The notes under the pieces: model-generated
Told to the model about the DNA's origin: nothing
The model's database searches: none
The model's input: only the letters and a program-made list of their open reading frames with translations
In this document: piece by piece, positions 2,086 to 48,932 of the stretch
Layout: every line of letters begins with the position of its first letter
Numbering within the stretch: the first letter of the stretch is position 1
Position numbers and translations under genes: made by a program
Assembly (NCBI GenBank): GCA_031292145.1
Contig: JARLHR010000084.1
Span: forward strand, 1 to 64,000
DNA length: 64,000 bases
Direction: 5' to 3'
DNA from: Clostridium sp.
GTDB taxonomy: Bacteria > Bacillota > Clostridia > Clostridiales > Clostridiaceae

Positions 2086-2310
2086 ATGGCTGTAACAAAA
2101 CAAATTGCAACTACATCTTTAAGTATCGAGGTTCAAAGTGGACAAGATAAAGCAGGAGACCCAACATTTACCAAGAAAAACTTTTCTAATGTAAGAACTG
2201 ACGTGACCCCTGAAAATGCATATGCGGTGGCTGAAGCTGTTAAAGCTGTTTTATCAGCTAACACTAGAGCTTATTTATTAAATGAATCTTCAAGTCTTGC
2301 TCAAGGATAA
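2086..2310 (+). CDS. DUF1659 family small protein
   Basis: A 74-residue protein of unknown function. The family pattern is clear: a lysine-bearing start (VTKQIATTSLSIEVQSG), a central KKNFSNVRTDVTPENAYAVAEAVKAVL segment, and a short C-terminal tail. It has no signal peptide or membrane helix. The ATG has a strong AGGAGG ribosome site eight bases upstream. It sits between the interrupted YvrJ-like gene and a DUF2922 gene, the usual trio in Clostridia and Bacilli; co-transcription up to the terminator at 2637 is likely. The biological role of the trio is not known. Confidence 0.85.
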   Translation: MAVTKQIATTSLSIEVQSGQDKAGDPTFTKKNFSNVRTDVTPENAYAVAEAVKAVLSANTRAYLLNESSSLAQG

Positions 2311-2410
2311 ATCCTTCAAAAACAAACATCTTTTTAGACATCTTAGGAATTACTTACGTATCACGTATTAGGCACAATCAAAAAAAATTAATTTTAGGAG
2401 GCTTTAAATT

Positions 2411-2629
2411 ATGGAATATGTTTTAGCAATGACTTTTATAACTGAAAATGGGTTAAAAAGCAATTTTAGCATCAGCGGGGTTAAGCCTACTCTTACTTCT
2501 GCAGAAGTAAATTCCTTAATGGACACAATTATCCAGAAGAATGTCTTCTTTACTTCTTCTGGAGCTTTAGTAAAAAAATCTGGAGCTAACCTAACAGAGA
2601 AAAATGTTACTAAACTAGATGTAGCTTAA
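2411..2629 (+). CDS. DUF2922 family small protein
   Basis: A 72-residue protein of unknown function with the DUF2922 pattern: an N-terminal strand (YVLAMTFITENGLKSNFSISGVKP), the helix TSAEVNSLMDTIIQKNVF, and a C-terminal strand ending NVTKLDVA. AGGAGG precedes the ATG. It is the last gene of the small-protein set and is followed within ten bases by an intrinsic terminator. No enzymatic motif is visible. Confidence 0.85.
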   Translation: MEYVLAMTFITENGLKSNFSISGVKPTLTSAEVNSLMDTIIQKNVFFTSSGALVKKSGANLTEKNVTKLDVA

Positions 2630-2769: not shown

Positions 2770-2829
2770 GTACTTGGTAATTCTCTGGGCCTCAGGTGTG
2801 CTAGTGAGGAACTTGTGATTCACTTGCTA
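2770..2829 (-). repeat. 3' tail element, copy 1 (after the Uma2 gene)
   Basis: In the gene's direction the element begins with the stop codon itself: TAGCAAG, a stem GTGA...TCAC, TAGCAC, a small hairpin around CCTGAGG, then CCCAGAGAATTACCAAG TAC. It matches the tails at 3490, 4500, 5695, 5796, 6626, 7131, 8545 and 29016. This copy has no clear GC stem before its T-run (TTTTTTTC near 2746-2753), so its terminator is weak or decayed. Confidence 0.8.
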
Positions 2830-3369
2830 TTCAAAAATATCTTCTAAGTCTACATTAAAATCTTTAAATACATAGCTCGTGAATAAATCCCCCAAATGGA
2901 ATGTATTAGTAATACTATAAACTCCATCTTCTAATCCATACTGAACTATATGTCCATTTTGTTCTACAATATTATACTCTAAAACTCCATATTTTTGATA
3001 TACAGAAAGCTTTGTAATATAGTCATGACTAGCTGTACTTTTTGAAACTACTTCAAATATTATTTTAGGAGGCGATATAAAGCTCTGCCCCATTGTTATA
3101 GCTTCTTCACATGTAACAAACACATCAGGTTTATATTTTATATTTTCATCAAAAATAACTTCTATCTGCTCAGTACTAACCTTGCATTTTCCACCTTTAA
3201 AATATTTTTTTAAAGCAAAAGCTATATTTAGAACTATATCGTTATGTTTAATAGATGTATCGGAATGCATAATAATTTTTCCATTATCATATTCTGTCTT
3301 ACATTTAAAAGATCCTTGCAATTTTTCATATTCATCAGAAGTAATATATATCTCTTTATTGCTATTCAT
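2827..3369 (-). CDS. Uma2 family PD-(D/E)XK endonuclease
   Basis: A 180-residue protein of the Uma2/DUF820 family, a restriction-endonuclease-like fold that is abundant in many genomes but whose role is unsettled. Visible: an N-terminal SDEYEKLQ segment, YDNGKIIMHSDTSIKHN, then the core motif KPDVFVTCEE with PPKIIFEVVSKSTASHDYITK (the D...E.V.S catalytic pattern), followed by KYGVLEYNIVEQ. ATG at 3369 has GAGGAGG upstream. Its stop codon is the first triplet of a 3' tail repeat. A paralogue lies at 51619. It is the last member of a minus-strand nuclease patch with Rpn genes. Confidence 0.85.
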   Translation of the reverse strand: MNSNKEIYITSDEYEKLQGSFKCKTEYDNGKIIMHSDTSIKHNDIVLNIAFALKKYFKGGKCKVSTEQIEVIFDENIKYKPDVFVTCEEAITMGQSFISPPKIIFEVVSKSTASHDYITKLSVYQKYGVLEYNIVEQNGHIVQYGLEDGVYSITNTFHLGDLFTSYVFKDFNVDLEDIFE

Positions 3370-3461
3370 TAGATTTTTACCTCCTCTTTTTTTGCTATTA
3401 AAATGTCCTCTATTTTTTACCTATCATTTCATTAGATTTAAATTCTATTTCTTTTACTTAT

Positions 3462-3490
3462 ATTATATCTCATATGCTACTTTTCTTAAA
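3462..3490 (-). promoter_or_regulatory. Promoter of the Uma2 gene, fused to the preceding terminator
   Basis: TATAAT (3462-3467) and TTTAAG (3485-3490) with 17 bases between. The -35 region runs straight out of the T-run of the terminator at 3496-3517. One of seven such modules in the window. Confidence 0.65.
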
Positions 3491-3609
3491 CAAAAAAACT
3501 ACGCTTTCACGTAGTTTAATCTCACAGCATTCATTCAGCATAATGCTTGTACTTGGTAATTTTTGTTTCCCCTAGGGGTGCTAGTTGAGTATTCATAATT
3601 TCCCAACTA
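3490..3609 (-). repeat. 3' tail element, copy 2, with terminator
   Basis: Starts at the TAG stop of the Rpn gene: TAGTTG...CAACTAGCAC (stem GTTG/CAAC), hairpin CCCCTAGGGG, then AAAAATTACCAAGTACAAGC, and ends with the terminator stem AAACTACG/CGTAGTTT (3496-3517) and TTTTTTTGTTT. The last 55 bases are identical to those of copy 5 at 5796. Confidence 0.85.
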
Positions 3610-4437
3610 TCTTAACTTTTCTATTTCCTCTACAGTCAAGCCTATTTTAACGGATATAGTTTCATTATCTAGCACATCTAATAAATTTTTAGCTATCTCA
3701 AAAGCTTTTTTCTTTTCTCCTTCTTCTCGTCCTTCTTCTCTTGCCTTATTAAGTGCACTTACCTTATCTTTTAATATTTTAGCTCTCATTTCATAGATCT
3801 CTCTCTGCTCAGTGTCATTACTCATTTTTATTAATTGATCTTTAGCATGTCTTATCTCTTCTACTGTCATTTCAAGATTTCTTACTTTTTCACTTTCTGG
3901 ATTCTTTAAAAATTCAGTCCATGCAACAAGCATATCTCTTTCATCACTATTTTCTTCTAATTTAGGAATCTCAATAAAATGCATTTCTATTATATCTGTT
4001 AATTCTTCATTGGTTTCTATCTCTTTAAGTCTATATCCTGTATGAAAACGTTCAGTTTTCAAATACTTAAAATTTAATATGTTTATGCAGACTGTTCTTC
4101 CAAGCTTTGAGTAATCCTCACCTTCCTCTAGCTGCTCTTCATACATTTTACTTAAATAATACATGCTTCTTTTTATCATATTATGTTCATTTTTTAGCTG
4201 TATTTCTATATTTATTATTTCATTATTATTTGTGGTAGCTTTTACATCTAATCTTGAATATTTATCTTCTATAAATTGCTTTGCAATATCAGTTCCTTTT
4301 ATTTTTACACTTGTTATTTTATTTTCAGGTTTTAATGTTGCATTTAAAAATGATATTAATATTTCAGGATTTTTTTCAGAGCCAAATATATTCTTAAAAA
4401 CGAAATCTACTTTGGGATCTAACAAACCTTTGCTCAT
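3607..4437 (-). CDS. Rpn family recombination-promoting nuclease/putative transposase (PF12784-like)
   Basis: A 276-residue member of the Rpn/YhgA-like group, which carry a PD-(D/E)XK nuclease core; E. coli RpnA is a Ca-stimulated DNase that promotes RecA-independent recombination, and homologues have been linked to phage defence. Seen here: the family start LLDPKVDFVFKNIFGSEKNPEILISFLN, the catalytic string YSRLDVKA...NIEIQLKNE (D...E.Q), a middle helical part, and a charged C-terminal AREEGREEGEKKKAFEIAKNLL segment ending TVEEIEKLR. The ATG at 4437 has GAGGTGG upstream. It lies between a sister Rpn gene and the Uma2 gene, and its stop codon opens a 3' tail element. Confidence 0.88.
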   Translation of the reverse strand: MSKGLLDPKVDFVFKNIFGSEKNPEILISFLNATLKPENKITSVKIKGTDIAKQFIEDKYSRLDVKATTNNNEIINIEIQLKNEHNMIKRSMYYLSKMYEEQLEEGEDYSKLGRTVCINILNFKYLKTERFHTGYRLKEIETNEELTDIIEMHFIEIPKLEENSDERDMLVAWTEFLKNPESEKVRNLEMTVEEIRHAKDQLIKMSNDTEQREIYEMRAKILKDKVSALNKAREEGREEGEKKKAFEIAKNLLDVLDNETISVKIGLTVEEIEKLR

Positions 4438-4472
4438 AATTATTCCACCTCTTTTAAATATCTATTATTTTA

Positions 4473-4501
4473 ATTATATACCATACATCATAACCTTAAA
4501 A
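4473..4501 (-). promoter_or_regulatory. Promoter of the 3607 Rpn gene, fused to the preceding terminator
   Basis: TATAAT (4473-4478), exactly 17 bases, TTTTAA (4496-4501); the TTTTAA is the end of the terminator T-run of the tail at 4500-4680. Confidence 0.68.
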
Positions 4502-4680
4502 CAAAAAAACAGATAAGATTTTCTATTCATCTCATCTGTTCTATCTATTCTCATTATTTTATACTTGTGCCTGTAAAATTTTGGACCTCCAAGGTGCTAG
4601 TCGGGAGCTTGCGAGCGACTTACTACCTTTGTGAGGGAAGCATGACCGAACTTGCTAGTCATGAAGTGCTGGGGTTGCTA
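4500..4680 (-). repeat. 3' tail element, copy 3 (long, composite)
   Basis: Begins at the TAG of the Rpn gene ending at 4678. It holds two tail types in series: a part with AGCAAGTTCGGTCATGCTTC shared with copies 4 and 9, then a stem GTCG...CGAC, TAGCACC, TTGGAGG and AAAATTTTACAGGCACAAG. It ends in a terminator stem CAGATGAGAT/ATCTTATCTG (4510-4538) and TTTTTTTG. The stem sequence differs from the other copies but still pairs. Confidence 0.75.
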
Positions 4681-5640
4681 GTGAATTTGTCCTTTTCTAA
4701 TAAAATCTATATCTTCATTTGTTAATCCTGTTAGCTTAATTATGACTTCATTATTCATTCCCATTTCTATAGCCTTTATAGCTGTTTCTTTTGCTTTCTT
4801 TTCTATTCCTTTTTCTATTCCCTTTTCTGTTGCTTTTCTTTCCATCTTTTCTAAAGTCTTTCCCAAATTGCTAACCATAAAATCTACCTCCTCCTGATTA
4901 GATTTATCTAATACCTCATCAACTTCTTTTTGCATTTCTTCAGTTAATCTAGGTTTTACTATTTTCTTGAGCCATTGCTTAAAAACATTAAACTGTTCCG
5001 GTGAAATTTTCTTTAGAATATATATTAATTTTCTTAGTCTTCTTATTAATTCATCCTCATCCATTTCCTGATCTAGCAAGAATACTGCTGATATTAAATT
5101 AGATACACTATATAGTTCTTCATCAGAATACCTATTTATATCAAATAACATATAATCAAAGTTTAATATATTATCTTCAAATAATTCGTATCCACTTAAT
5201 ATTTCCCTGAAACTTGTTTTGGCCGTCCATTTATTTTTTCCATTGTATAACACTATCGGAATAACTGCTGGTAGCCTAAAAGATTTTCTTTTAAGTTCAC
5301 TCTTATCTGTATTCTTAAGTACATCTCTCCAAACTTCTGTCATATAAAATAATAATCTCATAGGCATTTGAAAATCTACTTTTGATTGAAATTCCAGTAA
5401 TACATAAAATATTACTTCTTCCCCATTTATGTTTACTTTATAGAGTATATCAGACTCTTCTTCCTCAAAGTCTGAAAGTATATACGATTTATCAACTAAA
5501 ATTAAGTCTTCCTCATTTATTAAATTAGCCCATTCCTTTTTAGCAAAGCTTCTTAGTAGTTCTAAAAAAGTGCCTTTATGCGAAAATATGTGTTTATATC
5601 CTACATCATGCTCATGATGTACTTTATTCTTTTTCACCAC
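4678..5640 (-). CDS. Rpn family PD-(D/E)XK nuclease/putative transposase (YhgA-like)
   Basis: A 320-residue protein, full length for the family. N-terminal HEHDVGYKHIFSHKGTFLELLRSF is the typical YhgA-like opening; the nuclease core is ESDILYKVNINGEEVIFYVLLEFQSKVD (D...E.Q). The middle has FRLPAVIPIVLYNGKNKWTA and the DYMLFDINRYSDEEL...AVFLLDQEMDEDEL region, and the C-terminus has EKGIEKGIEKKAKETAIKAIEMG then LTNEDIDFIRKG. The start is GTG at 5640 (a second GTG follows at once), with AGGGAG upstream. It is diverged from the neighbouring Rpn at 3607, so the two are not a recent duplication. Fragments of the same subtype occur at 30025. Confidence 0.88.
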   Translation of the reverse strand: MVKKNKVHHEHDVGYKHIFSHKGTFLELLRSFAKKEWANLINEEDLILVDKSYILSDFEEEESDILYKVNINGEEVIFYVLLEFQSKVDFQMPMRLLFYMTEVWRDVLKNTDKSELKRKSFRLPAVIPIVLYNGKNKWTAKTSFREILSGYELFEDNILNFDYMLFDINRYSDEELYSVSNLISAVFLLDQEMDEDELIRRLRKLIYILKKISPEQFNVFKQWLKKIVKPRLTEEMQKEVDEVLDKSNQEEVDFMVSNLGKTLEKMERKATEKGIEKGIEKKAKETAIKAIEMGMNNEVIIKLTGLTNEDIDFIRKGQIH

Positions 5641-5666
5641 ATCACTCCCTTATTTCTTACTTTAAT

Positions 5667-5695
5667 TATAAACTATATTTCATTTTCTTAAAACA
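5667..5695 (-). promoter_or_regulatory. Promoter of the 4678 Rpn gene, fused to the preceding terminator
   Basis: TATAAT (5667-5672), 17 bases, TTTTAA (5690-5695) directly continuing the terminator T-run of the tail at 5695-5795. Confidence 0.68.
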
Positions 5696-5795
5696 AAAAA
5701 ATTGCACTAAACGATTATTTGGTGCAATGCTTGTACTTGGTAAAATTCTACAAGGGTCTGACCCCTTTGTGAGGGAAGCATGACCGAACTTGCTA
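5695..5795 (-). repeat. 3' tail element, copy 4
   Basis: Reads TAGCAAGTTCGGTCATGC, a hairpin ACAAAGGGG..CCCTTGT, AATTTTACCAAGTACAAGC, then the terminator stem TTGCACTAAA (5702-5728) and a T-run. No gene ends at this copy: it starts at the very end of copy 5, so the two tails are in tandem. Confidence 0.8.
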
Positions 5796-5924
5796 AAACA
5801 AAAAAACTACGCTTTCACGTAGTTTAATCTCACAGCATTCATTCAGCATAATGCTTGATGCTTGTACTTGGTAATTTTCTGGGCCTCCGAGGTGCTGGAG
5901 GGGAATGAAATGACCCTCTTGCTA
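5796..5924 (-). repeat. 3' tail element, copy 5, inserted in IS66 debris
   Basis: Reads TAGCAAGAGGGTCATTTC, stem GAGGG/CCCTC, AGCACCTCGGAGGCCCAG, AAAATTACCAAGTACAAGC and the ACTACG terminator. It interrupts an IS66 tnpA frame, so here the TAG is out of frame. This shows that the element begins at TAGCAAG regardless of the gene in front of it. Confidence 0.8.
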
Positions 5925-6201
5925 TTTCATTAGCCGGTACATATATTTTAGCTGTTCCTATTTCTATTATTATATTAGGTATATCAGCCGGAACTACAGT
6001 GATTTCAGTTCTTACTCTTTCTTCTCTCATAGAAATTGCATGAAACTGTAAATTATTATTTTCATCCTTAAATTTCTTTTTATAGTAATAAAATTGACTT
6101 TTAGTAATGTGATTTTCATTACAGAAATTTCCTAACGTTCCTTCGTAAGAAGAAAACCCAGAAACAATTTCTCTCCAATTTATATTTTCATTATTGTTCA
6201 T
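5839..6201 (-). pseudogene. IS66 accessory protein TnpA, truncated and fused to a tail repeat
   Basis: The first 93 residues fit the small IS66 Orf1/TnpA protein: NWREIVSGFSSYEGTLGNFC, KSQFYYYKKKFKDE (a helix-turn-helix part) and IIIEIGTAKIYVPANEI. At 5924 the gene runs into a 3' tail repeat, and translation goes on for 28 residues of repeat-derived sequence (RGSFHSPPAPRRPRKL...) to a chance stop at 5839. ATG at 6201 has GGAGG nine bases upstream. The rest of IS66 is missing or scattered; a piece of the main transposase lies at 6277 on the other strand. Confidence 0.75.
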
Positions 6202-6207
6202 ATAAAT

Positions 6208-6253
6208 AAACCTCCATTGTTAAAATCTATGCTAATTTTAACAATAGAGGTTT
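6208..6253. repeat. Inverted repeat between the two IS66 remnants
   Basis: Arms of 19 bases, 6208-6226 (AAACCTCCATTGTTAAAAT) and 6235-6253, pair with one mismatch around an eight-base loop. It includes the ribosome site of the tnpA remnant and may mark the junction left by inversion of IS66 debris. Confidence 0.7.
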
Positions 6254-6276
6254 ACATTTATCTATCCGTTAATTTT

Positions 6277-6513
6277 TTTACGCTTACAAAAAATTGGATG
6301 TTTTCCAAGACAGCAAAAGGTGCAAAATCAAGTGCACTTCTTTATAGTATTGTTGAAACGGCTAAAGCCAATGGCTTAGCAGTAGAAACGTATTTAGTAT
6401 ATTTGTTTGAAATGCTTGCAAATGCAGAATTTAAAGAACGTGACATATTAGAAAAATGTATGCCGTGGGCCGAAAACATTCCAGATGAACTGCACATTAA
6501 GATTACCAAATAA
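6277..6513 (+). pseudogene. IS66 transposase (TnpC), C-terminal fragment
   Basis: The frame reads KNWMFSKTAKGAKSSALLYS, IVETAKANGLAVETYLVYLF and then LPWA/IPDEL-type residues up to a TAA at 6513. This is the conserved C-terminal end of IS66 DDE transposases (W-F-S-x-T-x-KGAxASA...YLxxLFE). Everything before it, including the catalytic core, is absent. It points away from the tnpA remnant at 5839, so the original element has been rearranged. Bases 6514-6625 hold no gene. Confidence 0.85.
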
Positions 6514-6625
6514 TCATTTCTATATAAAATTGTACCCAACAGAGAATATAAGTTTTTCTGTTGGGTTTATTTTATCACTTAAGTTTAGGCTGCCGCTACG
6601 CGTCGTTTTTTTGACGTTTACTCTT

Positions 6626-6729
6626 AAAACAAAAAAATTGCACTAAATAATCTTCTAGTGCAATGCTTGTACCTGGTAATTTTCTGGGCCTCCGGGGTGC
6701 TGGAGGGGAATGAAATGACCCTCTTGCTA
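6626..6729 (-). repeat. 3' tail element, copy 6
   Basis: Begins at the TAG of the truncated Rpn gene: TAGCAAGAGGGTCATTTC, stem GAGGG/CCCTC, CCCGGAGG hairpin, AAAATTACCAGGTACAAGC, terminator stem TTGCACTAGAAG...TAGTGCAA (6638-6663) and a seven-T run. Nearly identical to copy 7, which lies in direct orientation before the same gene. Confidence 0.85.
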
Positions 6730-7041
6730 TTGTGCTTGATCTCTTATTGGAAACGTTGAATAATATATTGCCCTATCTTTAAAATATAATTGCTTCGCAT
6801 TTTGCATTTCTACTATAAATTGACTTCCCTTTTCATCCTCACAAAATATATCATACACAGCCTTCCGACTTATTACTATGTCCCCTTGCTGCTCATTCTT
6901 TTTAAATGTAAGATTTATTATTTTATCTCTTATTGGTAATAAATCATTTAGAAAACTTATTAATAATTTTTTGCTAGCTTCTTCTCCAAACAACTTTTTG
7001 AACCCATAATCTGTGAATGGATTTATATACTTTGGTTTCAT
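6727..7041 (-). pseudogene. Rpn family nuclease, N-terminal fragment
   Basis: About 104 residues of a protein normally near 290. It keeps the family start KYINPFTDYGFKKLFGEEASKKLLISFLN and the nuclease core VYDIFCEDEKGSQFIVEMQN (D...E.Q), and stops soon after FKDRAIYYSTFPIRDQAQ, where the tail repeat begins. The ATG at 7041 is preferred because GGAGGTGG lies five bases upstream; an in-frame GTG at 7050 falls within that ribosome site. The catalytic residues are kept, but loss of the helical and C-terminal parts suggests it is non-functional. Copies 6 and 7 of the tail flank it as direct repeats. Confidence 0.8.
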
Positions 7042-7106
7042 TATTACCACCTCCCATACTCTTTATTTTAAATTATATCATATTTATATCCATTTATTCT
7101 ATTTAT

Positions 7107-7135
7107 ATTATAACCTATAACCAATTTCCTTAAAA
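7107..7135 (-). promoter_or_regulatory. Promoter of the truncated Rpn gene, fused to the preceding terminator
   Basis: TATAAT (7107-7112), 17 bases, TTTTAA (7130-7135) at the end of the T-run of copy 7. Confidence 0.68.
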
Positions 7136-7234
7136 CAAAAAATTGCACTAAATAATCTTTTAGTGCAACGCTTGTACTTGGTAATTTCCTGGGCCTCCGA
7201 GGTGTTTGAGGGGAATGAAATGACCCTCTTGCTA
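7131..7234 (-). repeat. 3' tail element, copy 7 (after the acyltransferase gene)
   Basis: Same sequence as copy 6 with a few changes (terminator 7143-7168), but it lies 20 bases after the stop of an unrelated acyltransferase gene, whose TAA is at 7254. It probably now terminates the acyltransferase transcript. Confidence 0.82.
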
Positions 7235-7253
7235 TAAGATAATTTAGTAGAAG

Positions 7254-8213
7254 TTAATTGTATCTTCCTAAAAATATTCTTTCTAGATATTTATTTTTTC
7301 TTATAATATACTTAGACAATAAAATTGACATGAAACCCGAAATGAATAATATTAATATTACAGTTCCATAATTTACATTTAAAATTTGATAAAATATCAC
7401 TCTAAATCCAGTCATAAAAAACCAGCTAAATAAATATATATCATAACTATAATAAGCTAAAATATCAAGTGATTTTATTGCATTTTCATTATTAATTCTT
7501 TGAATAATATTTATTATTAATAATATTCCAATTGAAGACGTAACTAAAAATGCTATTATATTATTAAAAAATATATTTACAACAACTAATAATAAAAATA
7601 ATAAAATAGTCACTATATTATTTACCTTTAGCCTCTCAAATTTACCATAACTAAGTAATCCTAAGTAAAAGAAAATATAGTTTTTTAACAAACTAGATAT
7701 AGCTAAAAAGTTAGTTGTGTTTGGTGATATTGTACATAATAATACAAGTATTATTATCATGATTTTGGGTGGAAATTTTATGACTATAGGTAGTAATAAA
7801 AACATTAAAAATAAAGCATAAATATACCATAAATAAATTACTGGAGAATTAACGGGATAAATTAATATATCTTTAATTAATTCCGCTATAATCAATGGTC
7901 TTTGTGAAAACTTATTTAATATTAATTTAATAGGAACTGCTAATAAAGTTATTGCACAGTACGGTACAATCAATCTATTTAACTTCTTTTTATAGAATTC
8001 TTTAATATCATTTCTAGATTTTACTTTATAGATGCTAATTGCACAAAACCCTGAAATCCAAAAGAACAAAGGCATATGAAAACTATAAATAAATTTATGA
8101 ATAAATTCATAAAAATAATTATTGTTAAAATCGTCTGTTGGGAATGAATGTCCCAGAACAACTAATACTATTCCAAATCCTCTTAAATAATTTATTTTTT
8201 TATTATATTCCAT
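7254..8213 (-). CDS. Membrane acyltransferase, family 3 (OafA/WecH type)
   Basis: A 319-residue integral membrane protein with about ten hydrophobic segments. It starts with INYLRGFGIVLVVLGHSFPT, whose R-G-x-x-I-x-x-V-x-x-G-H motif carries the conserved histidine of acyltransferase-3 enzymes, followed by FHMPLFFWISGFC, the second family signature. Such enzymes O-acetylate sugars of exported polysaccharides. It lies downstream of the exopolysaccharide genes on the same strand but is parted from them by a 540-bp decayed region, so it may be an outlier of that locus or a later arrival. The stop is followed by tail copy 7. Confidence 0.82.
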   Translation of the reverse strand: MEYNKKINYLRGFGIVLVVLGHSFPTDDFNNNYFYEFIHKFIYSFHMPLFFWISGFCAISIYKVKSRNDIKEFYKKKLNRLIVPYCAITLLAVPIKLILNKFSQRPLIIAELIKDILIYPVNSPVIYLWYIYALFLMFLLLPIVIKFPPKIMIIILVLLCTISPNTTNFLAISSLLKNYIFFYLGLLSYGKFERLKVNNIVTILLFLLLVVVNIFFNNIIAFLVTSSIGILLIINIIQRINNENAIKSLDILAYYSYDIYLFSWFFMTGFRVIFYQILNVNYGTVILILFISGFMSILLSKYIIRKNKYLERIFLGRYN

Positions 8214-8758
8214 ATATATCCCCTTCCCATTGGTAATATTTATATTTATTTTTAAGCTGTATTTCTATATTAATTATTTCATTACTACTCTAATCTATAT
8301 AATAAAGATATTAATGCAGTCTATGATAATATTAGTAAAGATAAAATTAATAATAATCCACCAAATAATATCCTAATAATTCTATCAACAAAAAAAGCAT
8401 AAAGACAAATAAAAAGAAGAAAATAGATACGCTTATTAATATTACAGATGAAGAAACCAAATGAAATGTTCCTCTTACTAAAGAAAAACAGATTTTAATA
8501 GATTAATTCATCTTACCTGTTTTATCTCTATTTCTATATTATTAGAACTTGTATTTGATAATTTTTCATAATTGACTGACCATGTTGTGATAGAAGTATG
8601 ACCGAACTTGCTACTTATTTATATATCTATCTCTCTTTTAGTTAAAACACCAACTACTTCTTACCATTGATATTTATGTATTTTAAAATTAATATTTACA
8701 ACTCTCTATTTCTATATTATTCTAATCCCGTAACATCTAAAATTTTATAGAAATTTGA
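8214..8758. other. Decayed intergenic region with Rpn and tail-repeat remnants
   Basis: No intact gene. Bases 8246-8290 resemble the part of the 3607 Rpn gene that encodes NNEIINIEIQLKN (compare 4192-4230), and 8545-8613 is a degenerate tail element (copy 9) with TAGCAAGTTCGGTCAT. The middle part contains short open stretches without family signature. It looks like the scar of a lost Rpn cassette. Confidence 0.6.
8545..8613 (-). repeat. 3' tail element, copy 9 (degenerate)
   Basis: TAGCAAGTTCGGTCATACTT at the start agrees with copies 3 and 4; the middle is changed and the end reads AATTATCAAATACAAG, a worn form of AATTACCAAGTACAAG. No terminator stem is left. Confidence 0.6.
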
Positions 8759-28991: not shown

Positions 28992-29020
28992 ATTATATCC
29001 TATAATATTTTTGGTTAAAA
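28992..29020 (-). promoter_or_regulatory. Orphan promoter fused to a terminator (before the nucleotidyltransferase remnant)
   Basis: TATAAT (28992-28997), 17 bases, TTTTAA (29015-29020), continuing the T-run of the tail remnant at 29016-29060. Same module as at 3462, 4473, 5667, 7107, 37356 and 52219. Confidence 0.62.
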
Positions 29021-29060
29021 CAAAAAATTGCACTAAATAATCTTTAGTGCAATGCATGTA
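29016..29060 (-). repeat. 3' tail element, copy 8 (terminator end only)
   Basis: Only the last part is kept: GTACATGCATTGCACTAAAG, with the terminator stem TTGCACTAAA/TTTAGTGCAA (29028-29052) and TTTTTTG. The front part with TAGCAAG is lost; the Rpn remnant runs straight into it. Confidence 0.75.
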
Positions 29061-29190
29061 CTTTGCATTTCTTCTCTACCCTCTTTTATACCTTCTTCTC
29101 TTCCTTCTTTTTTAGCTTTGTCCCTCCATTCATCAAGTATAAAAGCATTTCTTGCAACCATAAGTTCAACCTGATTTCTAAAACTATGTC
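29054..29190 (-). pseudogene. Rpn family nuclease, C-terminal remnant
   Basis: A short frame reads RNQVELMVARNAFILDEWRD then KAKKEGREEGIKEGREEMQ. The charged KEGREEG run is the typical C-terminal part of Rpn/YhgA-like proteins. The N-terminal nuclease is absent, and the end is cut by the tail repeat. Confidence 0.6.
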
Positions 29191-48599: not shown

Positions 48600-48830
48600 A
48601 ATCCTCATTTCGTTGAGGTCGGTGGTCTTATTGTGATTCCCATACATTGCGAAAGTGGTGTAATCATAGGATAAAACCTTGAGGGTGTTTAGCACCGTGT
48701 GGAGAAATCAAATTTGATAAATAATAAAAGAAAAGGAGGAAGTTGACAGCTCGTGAATTACGCACTAACAAGTATTTACGAGTATATACCGTGCGTTGTA
48801 CGGGAATTTAAGCCTTTGGAGAACTGTATC
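48600..48830 (+). other. Unidentified structured region before the lipoprotein gene
   Basis: No coding frame. It is richer in G and C than its surroundings and holds several stems on the plus strand: CCTCATTTCGTTGAGG, GGTGTTTAGCACC, CTCGT...ACGAG, and ACGCAC (near 48759) with GTGCGT (near 48792). A good AGGAGGAAG sits within it without a gene behind it. It could be a regulatory RNA, a riboswitch-like leader or a ribozyme relic; no known class was recognised. Confidence 0.4.
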
Positions 48831-48932
48831 AAACAAAAGTAGTTTACTCTTTTAAGTTTACGAAATTGGGTTCAATGAATAAGGAATGAACTTTATAGAG
48901 TTTTATAAAGTTTTGTCAACGGTGTACATATC

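Follow-up and report, generated by a model that had tools for sequence, protein, structure and literature searches.

In a 64,000-nt stretch of Clostridium sp. DNA (the window), a row of genes between positions 2,770 and 8,615, several of which encode Rpn-like or Uma2 family nucleases, is jointed by a short structured sequence that recurs at the 3' ends of the genes (the tail). With moderate confidence, we interpret this row as a tail-jointed, cassette-like array at a chromosomal hot spot, in which the tail resembles repetitive extragenic palindromic (REP) elements and is tied by position to RAYT, and in which the Rpn and Uma2 genes are cargo and not the recombinase. As judged by aligning arrays of related genomes with one another, blocks of homology end mostly in or just behind tails, the presence and the order of units differ, and the tails occupy the position of the 3' untranslated region (3' UTR) and terminator. 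Under this interpretation, an array unit would comprise a promoter-like start, a gene or gene pair, a tail and a terminator, and the tail would be made of hairpin modules that start after TA and are closed by a conserved core. The layout is that of an integron array and the anatomy that of REP elements, and the site is, in the C. beijerinckii group, a hot spot for the turnover of defence genes.

Detection of the tail

For detection, we used a sequence-only covariance model (R1) of the 40-nt core of the tail, built from 14 aligned copies of the window's genome (G000) and searched with cmsearch against the window and against a genome set with one genome per species (68 genomes of the genus, 206 of the family). 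The search returned seven good cores on the minus strand of the window (at 2770, 3544, 4563, 5728, 5859, 6664 and 7170; E 3e-6 to 5e-14) and an eighth, decayed core at 8548 (minus strand; E 0.003). Because the training set of R1 included six of the seven good window copies (all but 2770), these E-values are partly circular, and the training-independent weight is therefore drawn from matches in other genomes, the best E-values outside training being 3e-9 (G007), 2e-7 (G013) and 4e-8 (G158). R1 matched at E ≤ 0.01 in 16 of the 68 genus genomes, G000 counted, and at E ≤ 0.001 in 20 of the 206 family genomes, which belong to five of 46 genera; at the latter threshold G158 had ten matches and G157 six. 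The observation of a shared tail, for which the original prediction had suggested such a covariance-model search, is thus confirmed. Within G000, four of the 17 matches at E ≤ 0.01 were located outside its two arrays (contig C14 twice, C67 and C267). By eye, solitary tails outside arrays stand 3' of a UspA gene and of a sugar-binding gene.

Searching Rfam with the window array gave no match to the tail, and the second G000 array, on contig C46, gave at a loose threshold eight weak matches, all under the gathering score (best E 0.53). An exact tail pattern, which misses other tail variants, matched four loci in a scan of genome_contigs from which entries close to G000 may be missing. The loci are in C. 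chromiireducens, C. beijerinckii HUN142, a Bacillota metagenome-assembled genome, and one locus that we took as chance because it resembles cyanobacterial coding sequence. A phage or plasmid carrier was rejected, as the exact array-type pattern had no match in viral_contigs, the window array matched no phage, and plasmids gave four weak gene-level matches to it. Among the matches listed in a literature search with limited terms, neither such clostridial arrays nor REP-jointed gene cassettes were described.

Shared units are reordered at a chromosomal hot spot

The hot spot has a common layout, polysaccharide genes followed by an array and a DUF2922 gene, in G000, G002, G003, G007, G013 and partly G049, and the content of the array differs among them. 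In the window, its border is formed by DUF1659 and DUF2922 genes (2086..2629, plus strand), the DUF2922 gene being 76-89% identical in G002, G003, G007, G012, G013 and G049. G012 has the DUF2922 gene and no tail in 18 kb; in G003 the hot spot is nearly empty, with galU and, by reading, a putative MntA remnant. The second array of G000 (C46, locus L030) has five good tails and one weaker tail, and the array of G004 (L093) sits at another chromosomal place. Over eight array loci, the core pointed along the array in 51 of 52 matches, in agreement with the predicted common direction of all genes. A T-run followed within 130 nt downstream in 44 of the 50 core matches that have an upstream open reading frame (ORF; one of the 51 had none and was dropped), and in 19 of these 50 the gene stop was the TAG of TAGCA or of TAGTAGCA.

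Units shared between arrays are 84-99% identical and yet ordered differently. With A and B standing for two DUF4160/DUF2442 pairs, the orders are Fic-B-A in C46, A-Fic-B in G002 and B-A-Fic in G013, that is, cyclic permutations of one another. Among the matches listed, identity between aligned shared units is lost at one end at the stop codon or TA/GCAA (the slash marks the border here and below), and at the opposite end within the core or the terminator. To count such ends, we defined a homology block as at least 350 nt of at least 80% identity, a block end in a tail as one within the tail ± 10 nt, and the expected number by length. Across six arrays, with both directions per pair and leaving aside G049 and G004, 47 of 79 distinct block ends fell in tails (13.3 expected); 16 of the 32 ends outside tails lay 12-40 nt past a terminator and the rest elsewhere, some inside genes. 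When each array pair was counted once, 25 of 43 block ends were in tails (7.7 expected), and 34 of 43 when the 40 nt behind the terminator were added, a limit set afterwards (9.0 expected). Since the arrays share history, nominal p values for these block ends call for caution.

Pairs of alleles show the 5' border of the tail. The galU alleles end GATA/ATGACC in G003 and AATA/GCAAGTGAG in G013 and G002; since G003 has a weak tail about 50 nt further behind galU, this pair may also be a deletion. The Transposase_31 alleles end CACTA/ACTGAG in G002 and CACTA/GCAACC in the window, and the tails of the two G002 copies diverge at AAAAATTA/CCCAG versus AAAAATTA/GCAAG. The original interpretation is thus supported in part: tails can differ behind one and the same gene, with the switch at the stop codon, and the units are cassette-like in that they run in one direction, are exchangeable, are reordered between species and are joined mostly at tails. 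The precise unit borders that had been predicted held on the 5' side, which is sharp (TA/GCAA), but not on the 3' side, where ends are spread over the core, the terminator and the beginning of the unit that follows.

These data also bear on another history, the vertical inheritance of a single old array from which units were lost differentially, in which the order differences would be small local events and the tails incidental. The identity of shared units (84-99%) is near that of the flanking genes, and G003, with its putative MntA remnant, resembles an eroded array, both as such descent would have it; three conflicting orders of the same units together with a second array in G000, and the enrichment of block ends in tails, speak against it, and we regard it as quite improbable.

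Anatomy of the tail

The tail starts at the stop codon or slightly downstream, with one or more modules. The type 1 module (~50 nt) reads GCAAGT, hairpin 1, ACTAGCACC, a palindrome (for example CCTCNGAGG or CCCCTGGGG) and CCAAAATTTTA; the type 2 module is GCAAGTTCGGTCATGCTTCCCTCACAAAGGGGTCAGACCCTTGTG. Behind the modules come the core AATTACCAAGTACAAGC and then mostly an intrinsic terminator ending TTTTTTTGTTTTAAG, and the promoter-like start of the following unit, by reading, lies directly behind the terminator. The TAGCAAG starts, the CCTCGGAGG-type palindrome, the sequence AATTACCAAGTACAAGC and the TTTTTTTGTTT terminator are present as the original prediction claimed. Of 39 modules starting with the word GCAA[GC], 33 stand directly behind TA, compared with 22 of 280 occurrences of this word in the background; as the tail copies are related, they do not count as independent.

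In an alignment of 24 hand-picked type 1 modules, from which the seven-pair structure of hairpin 1 was itself drawn, 94.6% of the cells were paired and 34 cells were changed on both sides; the covariation score was reached by none of 500 shuffles, and slid controls scored far lower. A segment starting ATTGATGGTACGCCAAGCAAGGGGGGAATAGCCGAAG, by eye like part of a group II intron, is common to three tails (L089 8781-8830, L089 11472-11520 and L088 13232-13280).

Tails stand beside RAYT genes in three genera

RAYT is an IS200-like HUH, single-strand transposase associated with REP elements. In G004 (at the array end), G082 and G158, which belong to three genera, one strand carries a core match and, 128-270 nt downstream of it, a RAYT match, whereas 0.004 such pairs were expected from the 28 core matches and 27 RAYT matches in the nine genomes with both. 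We therefore regard the tail as a REP-like element of clostridia that was probably spread by RAYT. By reading, the RAYT gene of G158 stands between parts of a longer tail form, and palindromes like ACCCCTGGGGTCCAAAAAATT, which resemble the tail palindrome plus spacer, flank several more clostridial RAYT genes. In G033, a tail-like sequence of 11.9 bits precedes the RAYT gene. With a hidden Markov model (HMM) of the core, 5 of 17 RAYT loci scored at least 6 bits, compared with 1 of 170 shuffles and 1 of 20 control pieces (taken from the window and L110), a moderate enrichment. The GT[AG]G foot of REP elements was absent from the tail, whose foot is TA/GC in 33 of 39 module starts. REP-like families without the GT[AG]G foot are described in the excerpted text of PMC6006769, and excerpts of PMC6006769 and PMC3733652 report REP families without a RAYT gene of their own and mention a REPtron locus of E. 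coli in whose place a toxin-antitoxin operon stands.

Several results weigh against our interpretation. First, 18 of the 43 block ends counted once per array pair lie outside tails. Second, the support for hairpin 1 is uneven: two of the five covariation measures are at chance (double-change pairs 4 versus a shuffled mean of 3.4, further pair types 9 versus 9.1), the modules were picked by hand for one type and gave the structure under test, and helix 2, of which two pairs were tested, is 65% paired in the same alignment. Third, most of the RAYT loci examined have no nearby tail: only three of the five HMM matches among the 17 loci adjoin RAYT, and 13 of the 20 RAYT loci of the genome scan have no core match of at least 6 bits. 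Finally, a search for RAYT at E ≤ 1e-8 gave no match in G000, G002, G003, G007, G013 or G049, six of the seven array genomes, whose arrays still differ, and over 206 genomes the presence of RAYT and that of tails are uncorrelated (9/20 vs 92/186; Fisher p 0.82). RAYT or a Y1 transposase as a genome-level marker of tails was accordingly rejected for lack of correlation, and local adjacency alone holds; the single Y1_Tnp match in G000 is a broken fragment on contig C248. Given the missing correlation and the six array genomes in which RAYT was not found, present shuffling may be plain recombination between tails. A two-step course would fit: RAYT may first have spread the tails, cutting and joining folded single strands near the TA/GC foot, and recombination between tails of the same direction, with or without RAYT, may later have duplicated, lost and reordered units, with Rpn and Uma2 genes perhaps kept as cargo for their addiction or defence value.

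The same observations can be read in another way, in which the tail works in the 3' UTR as an RNA element for stability, processing or termination and was duplicated along with genes, and the shuffling is plain repeat recombination without any mobile tail. Consistent with this, tails lie 3' of genes in gene direction with a T-run mostly behind them, the variation in hairpin 1 keeps its pairing, solitary copies stand behind the putative UspA and sugar-binding genes, and most array genomes gave no RAYT match. Against it, the TA/GCAA border and a whole module added at TTA look like insertion and not duplication alone, cores stand before RAYT genes in three genera, and 11 homologues of the cargo genes elsewhere in G000 are untailed (see below). 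We consider the 3' UTR explanation possible, if doubtful.

Further features were seen at RAYT genes and tails. In clostridia, an apparent comM/yifB gene often encloses the RAYT gene or begins shortly downstream of it (L093 9799-10497, matching TIGR00368; L122 11280-12100, L133, L135 and L142-L144, by eye). In genus g25, long-form tails stand behind repeated 347-aa genes, of which those at L122 2549-3592 and 8601-9644 match the SocA/Panacea antitoxin domain, while those at L120 1443-2486 and L128 37-1080 are like them in length only. By eye, apparent group II introns have their 3' ends at the palindrome or the GTAGAATAAAATGG part of the g25 long-form tail (L121 14880-14960, L122 9900-9970 and L167 1-80); these elements may therefore be intron targets.

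Cargo genes and the role of Rpn

The cargo of the arrays consists of Uma2, PDDEXK_2, Transposase_31, DUF4160/DUF2442 pairs, Fic, DUF3990 with partners, HepT/MntA and HI0074/nucleotidyltransferase pairs. Genes of other kinds are galU, whole or in fragments, an acyltransferase, an ORF next to an IS66 piece and, ahead of several arrays, the last of the polysaccharide genes. In a hand tally, toxin-antitoxin, nuclease or defence-type genes made up 26 of 38 tailed units. The DUF4160/DUF2442 pair is given as the dhiTA toxin-antitoxin pair in a table excerpted from PMC8198452 and is counted among such toxin-antitoxin pairs in an excerpt of PMC12654330.

In the window, the following genes are found, on the minus strand unless noted. 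The Uma2 family nuclease gene (2827..3369, 180 aa; PF05685, E 7e-25; PADLOC PDC-S03) is cargo and 97% identical to a G049 gene. The PDDEXK_2 (Rpn-like) gene (3607..4437, 276 aa; PF12784, E 5e-66), also cargo, is 91% identical to a gene that has different neighbours in the G013 array, and the Transposase_31 (Rpn/YhgA-like) gene (4678..5640, 320 aa; PF04754, E 1e-32), cargo again, is 93-94% identical to the two tandem copies of the G002 array. They are followed by an ORF without a Pfam match at E ≤ 0.001 (5839-6201), an IS66 C-terminal remnant (6217..6513, plus strand; PF13817), a short PDDEXK_2 gene (6727..7050, 107 aa) that holds the N-terminal part of the family (PF12784, E 2e-32, profile positions 1-98 of 229), and an acyltransferase gene (7254..8213, 319 aa; PF01757). 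The claim that tails follow genes of different families stands for Uma2, PDDEXK_2, Transposase_31, the short PDDEXK_2 gene and the acyltransferase; the IS66 fragment is on the plus strand, beside the Pfam-less ORF.

Outside the arrays, none of 11 homologues in G000 (four PDDEXK_2 and seven Uma2 genes) was tailed, the best core score being 6.3 bits; this check took in PDDEXK_2 and Uma2 genes, and Transposase_31 fell outside it. The idea that the tail is an intrinsic part of Uma2 or PDDEXK_2 genes was rejected on account of these 11 untailed homologues.

The original prediction had also supposed that Rpn proteins, as recombination-promoting nucleases, may act on the tails. Of the six arrays compared, those of the window, G002 and G013 do contain Rpn-like genes, as does G049. 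On the other hand, two arrays are without the Rpn family (C46, that is L030, and L091 of G007), Rpn genes elsewhere in the genome having been checked only for G000; the PDDEXK_2 genes outside the arrays are untailed; an excerpt of PMC10327210 reports Rpn proteins to be toxin-antitoxin systems directed against phages; and the enzyme positionally tied to the tail is RAYT. That Rpn nucleases drive the exchange of tails is not supported and barely credible.

Tail copies and other features of the window

All tails of the window are on the minus strand. Tail 1 (2770..2829; E 3e-6, not in training) lies 3' of the Uma2 gene, whose stop codon is the TAG of TAGCAAG; it has a module TAGCAAGTGAA..CTCACTAGCA, the palindrome CACCTGAGG and the core to AAGTAC, and its terminator part is decayed. 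Tail 2 (3490..3609; E 8e-10), 3' of the PDDEXK_2 gene, is a variant with a CCCCTAGGGG palindrome and a ACTACGTGAAAGCGTAGT terminator, and tail 3 (4500..4680; E 4e-9), 3' of the Transposase_31 gene, has several consecutive modules, each beginning TAGCA. Tail 4 (5695..5797; E 1e-7) has no preceding gene and begins GTTTTA/GCAAG right behind the terminator of tail 5; it is either what a lost unit left behind or a tail that was added. Tail 5 (5796..5926; E 5e-14) overlaps the 3' end of the ORF at 5839-6201, near the IS66 remnant, and forms with tail 4 the tandem noticed at the outset. Tail 6 (6626..6731; E 4e-13) lies 3' of the short PDDEXK_2 gene, tail 7 (7131..7236; E 3e-12) about 20 nt past the stop of the acyltransferase gene, and tail 8 (8545..8615; E 0.003) is decayed. 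Nine copies had been counted originally: seven are good and one is decayed, but the ninth, far from the array at 29016..29070, is only a truncated tail, with the end of the core (AAAGTACATGC) and a GTGCAAT terminator, and gave no R1 match even at E ≤ 1. By eye, an Rpn-like fragment seemingly precedes it.

Elsewhere in the window, a group II intron with a reverse transcriptase (RVT_1) frame and an RF00029 match (10-1859) adjoins the DUF1659 end of the hot spot, and the ORF at 1814-1990 is similar to a small gene that relatives have near the hot spot. A RAGATH-18 RNA (67.5 bits) is located at 48813-48886 on the plus strand.

Comparison with known systems

Toxin-antitoxin-rich cassette arrays are known from integrons, and the clostridial arrays share with integrons and with clusters of attC sites lacking an integrase (CALINs) a one-direction row of units in which every gene is followed by a folded site, an abundance of toxin-antitoxin units, and reordering. 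They differ in that no integrase above cut-off was found and no attC core sites were recognised by reading, in that each clostridial unit has its own promoter-like start and terminator, and in that the borders are spread over the tail. An integron-type system, with attC-like tails handled by some tyrosine recombinase, would account for the one-direction array, the folded site 3' of genes, the toxin-antitoxin-rich cargo and the cyclic reordering, and candidate enzymes exist, as 67 of the 68 genus genomes have TIGR02249 matches below cut-off, as expected of other tyrosine recombinases. Yet none of the 68 has an integron integrase (TIGR02249) above cut-off, which bears out the absence of an integrase noted originally; by reading, the two tail ends hold no complementary simple sites and the units have their own promoter-like starts; and block ends are spread over the tail and not set at a single nucleotide. 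With no integrase above cut-off and no fixed crossover point, we did not class the array as an integron, and we consider an integron-type system very unlikely.

An analogy of another kind is a single-strand, HUH-transposase counterpart of the integron, in which RAYT would excise and insert whole toxin-antitoxin units at folded REP-like tails, cutting at TA/GC and thereby building and shuffling the one-direction arrays, and genomes without RAYT would hold frozen arrays in the manner of CALINs; we think this unlikely. Should our preferred interpretation of REP-like, tail-jointed arrays be correct, rows of genes can be gathered and shuffled without an integrase, jointed by REP-like palindromes, which would be another way of doing so; REP elements would gain a testable consequence, and Rpn and Uma2 genes would be placed among exchangeable cargo.

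Defence islands and toxin-antitoxin hot spots are alike in content (HepT/MntA, DUF4160/DUF2442, Fic, Rpn, Uma2 and DUF3990), whereas the clostridial array has a shared structured tail at its joints. With IS200/IS605 elements and their palindrome-associated derivatives, the likeness is insertion 3' of a short fixed target, as suggested by TA/GCAA and by the TTA flanking an added module; unlike them, the array units are without a transposase and their cargo is toxin-antitoxin and defence genes. The RAYT/REP systems (REPtrons, REPINs and bacterial interspersed mosaic elements, BIMEs) likewise consist of extragenic elements that are short, palindromic and modular and in which a short foot adjoins the hairpin, and the tail stands by RAYT genes in three genera. 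In contrast to these systems, the foot of the tail is TA/GC and not GTAG, RAYT was not found in six of the seven array genomes, and the tails form the 3' ends, mostly terminator-ended, of a one-direction cargo array.

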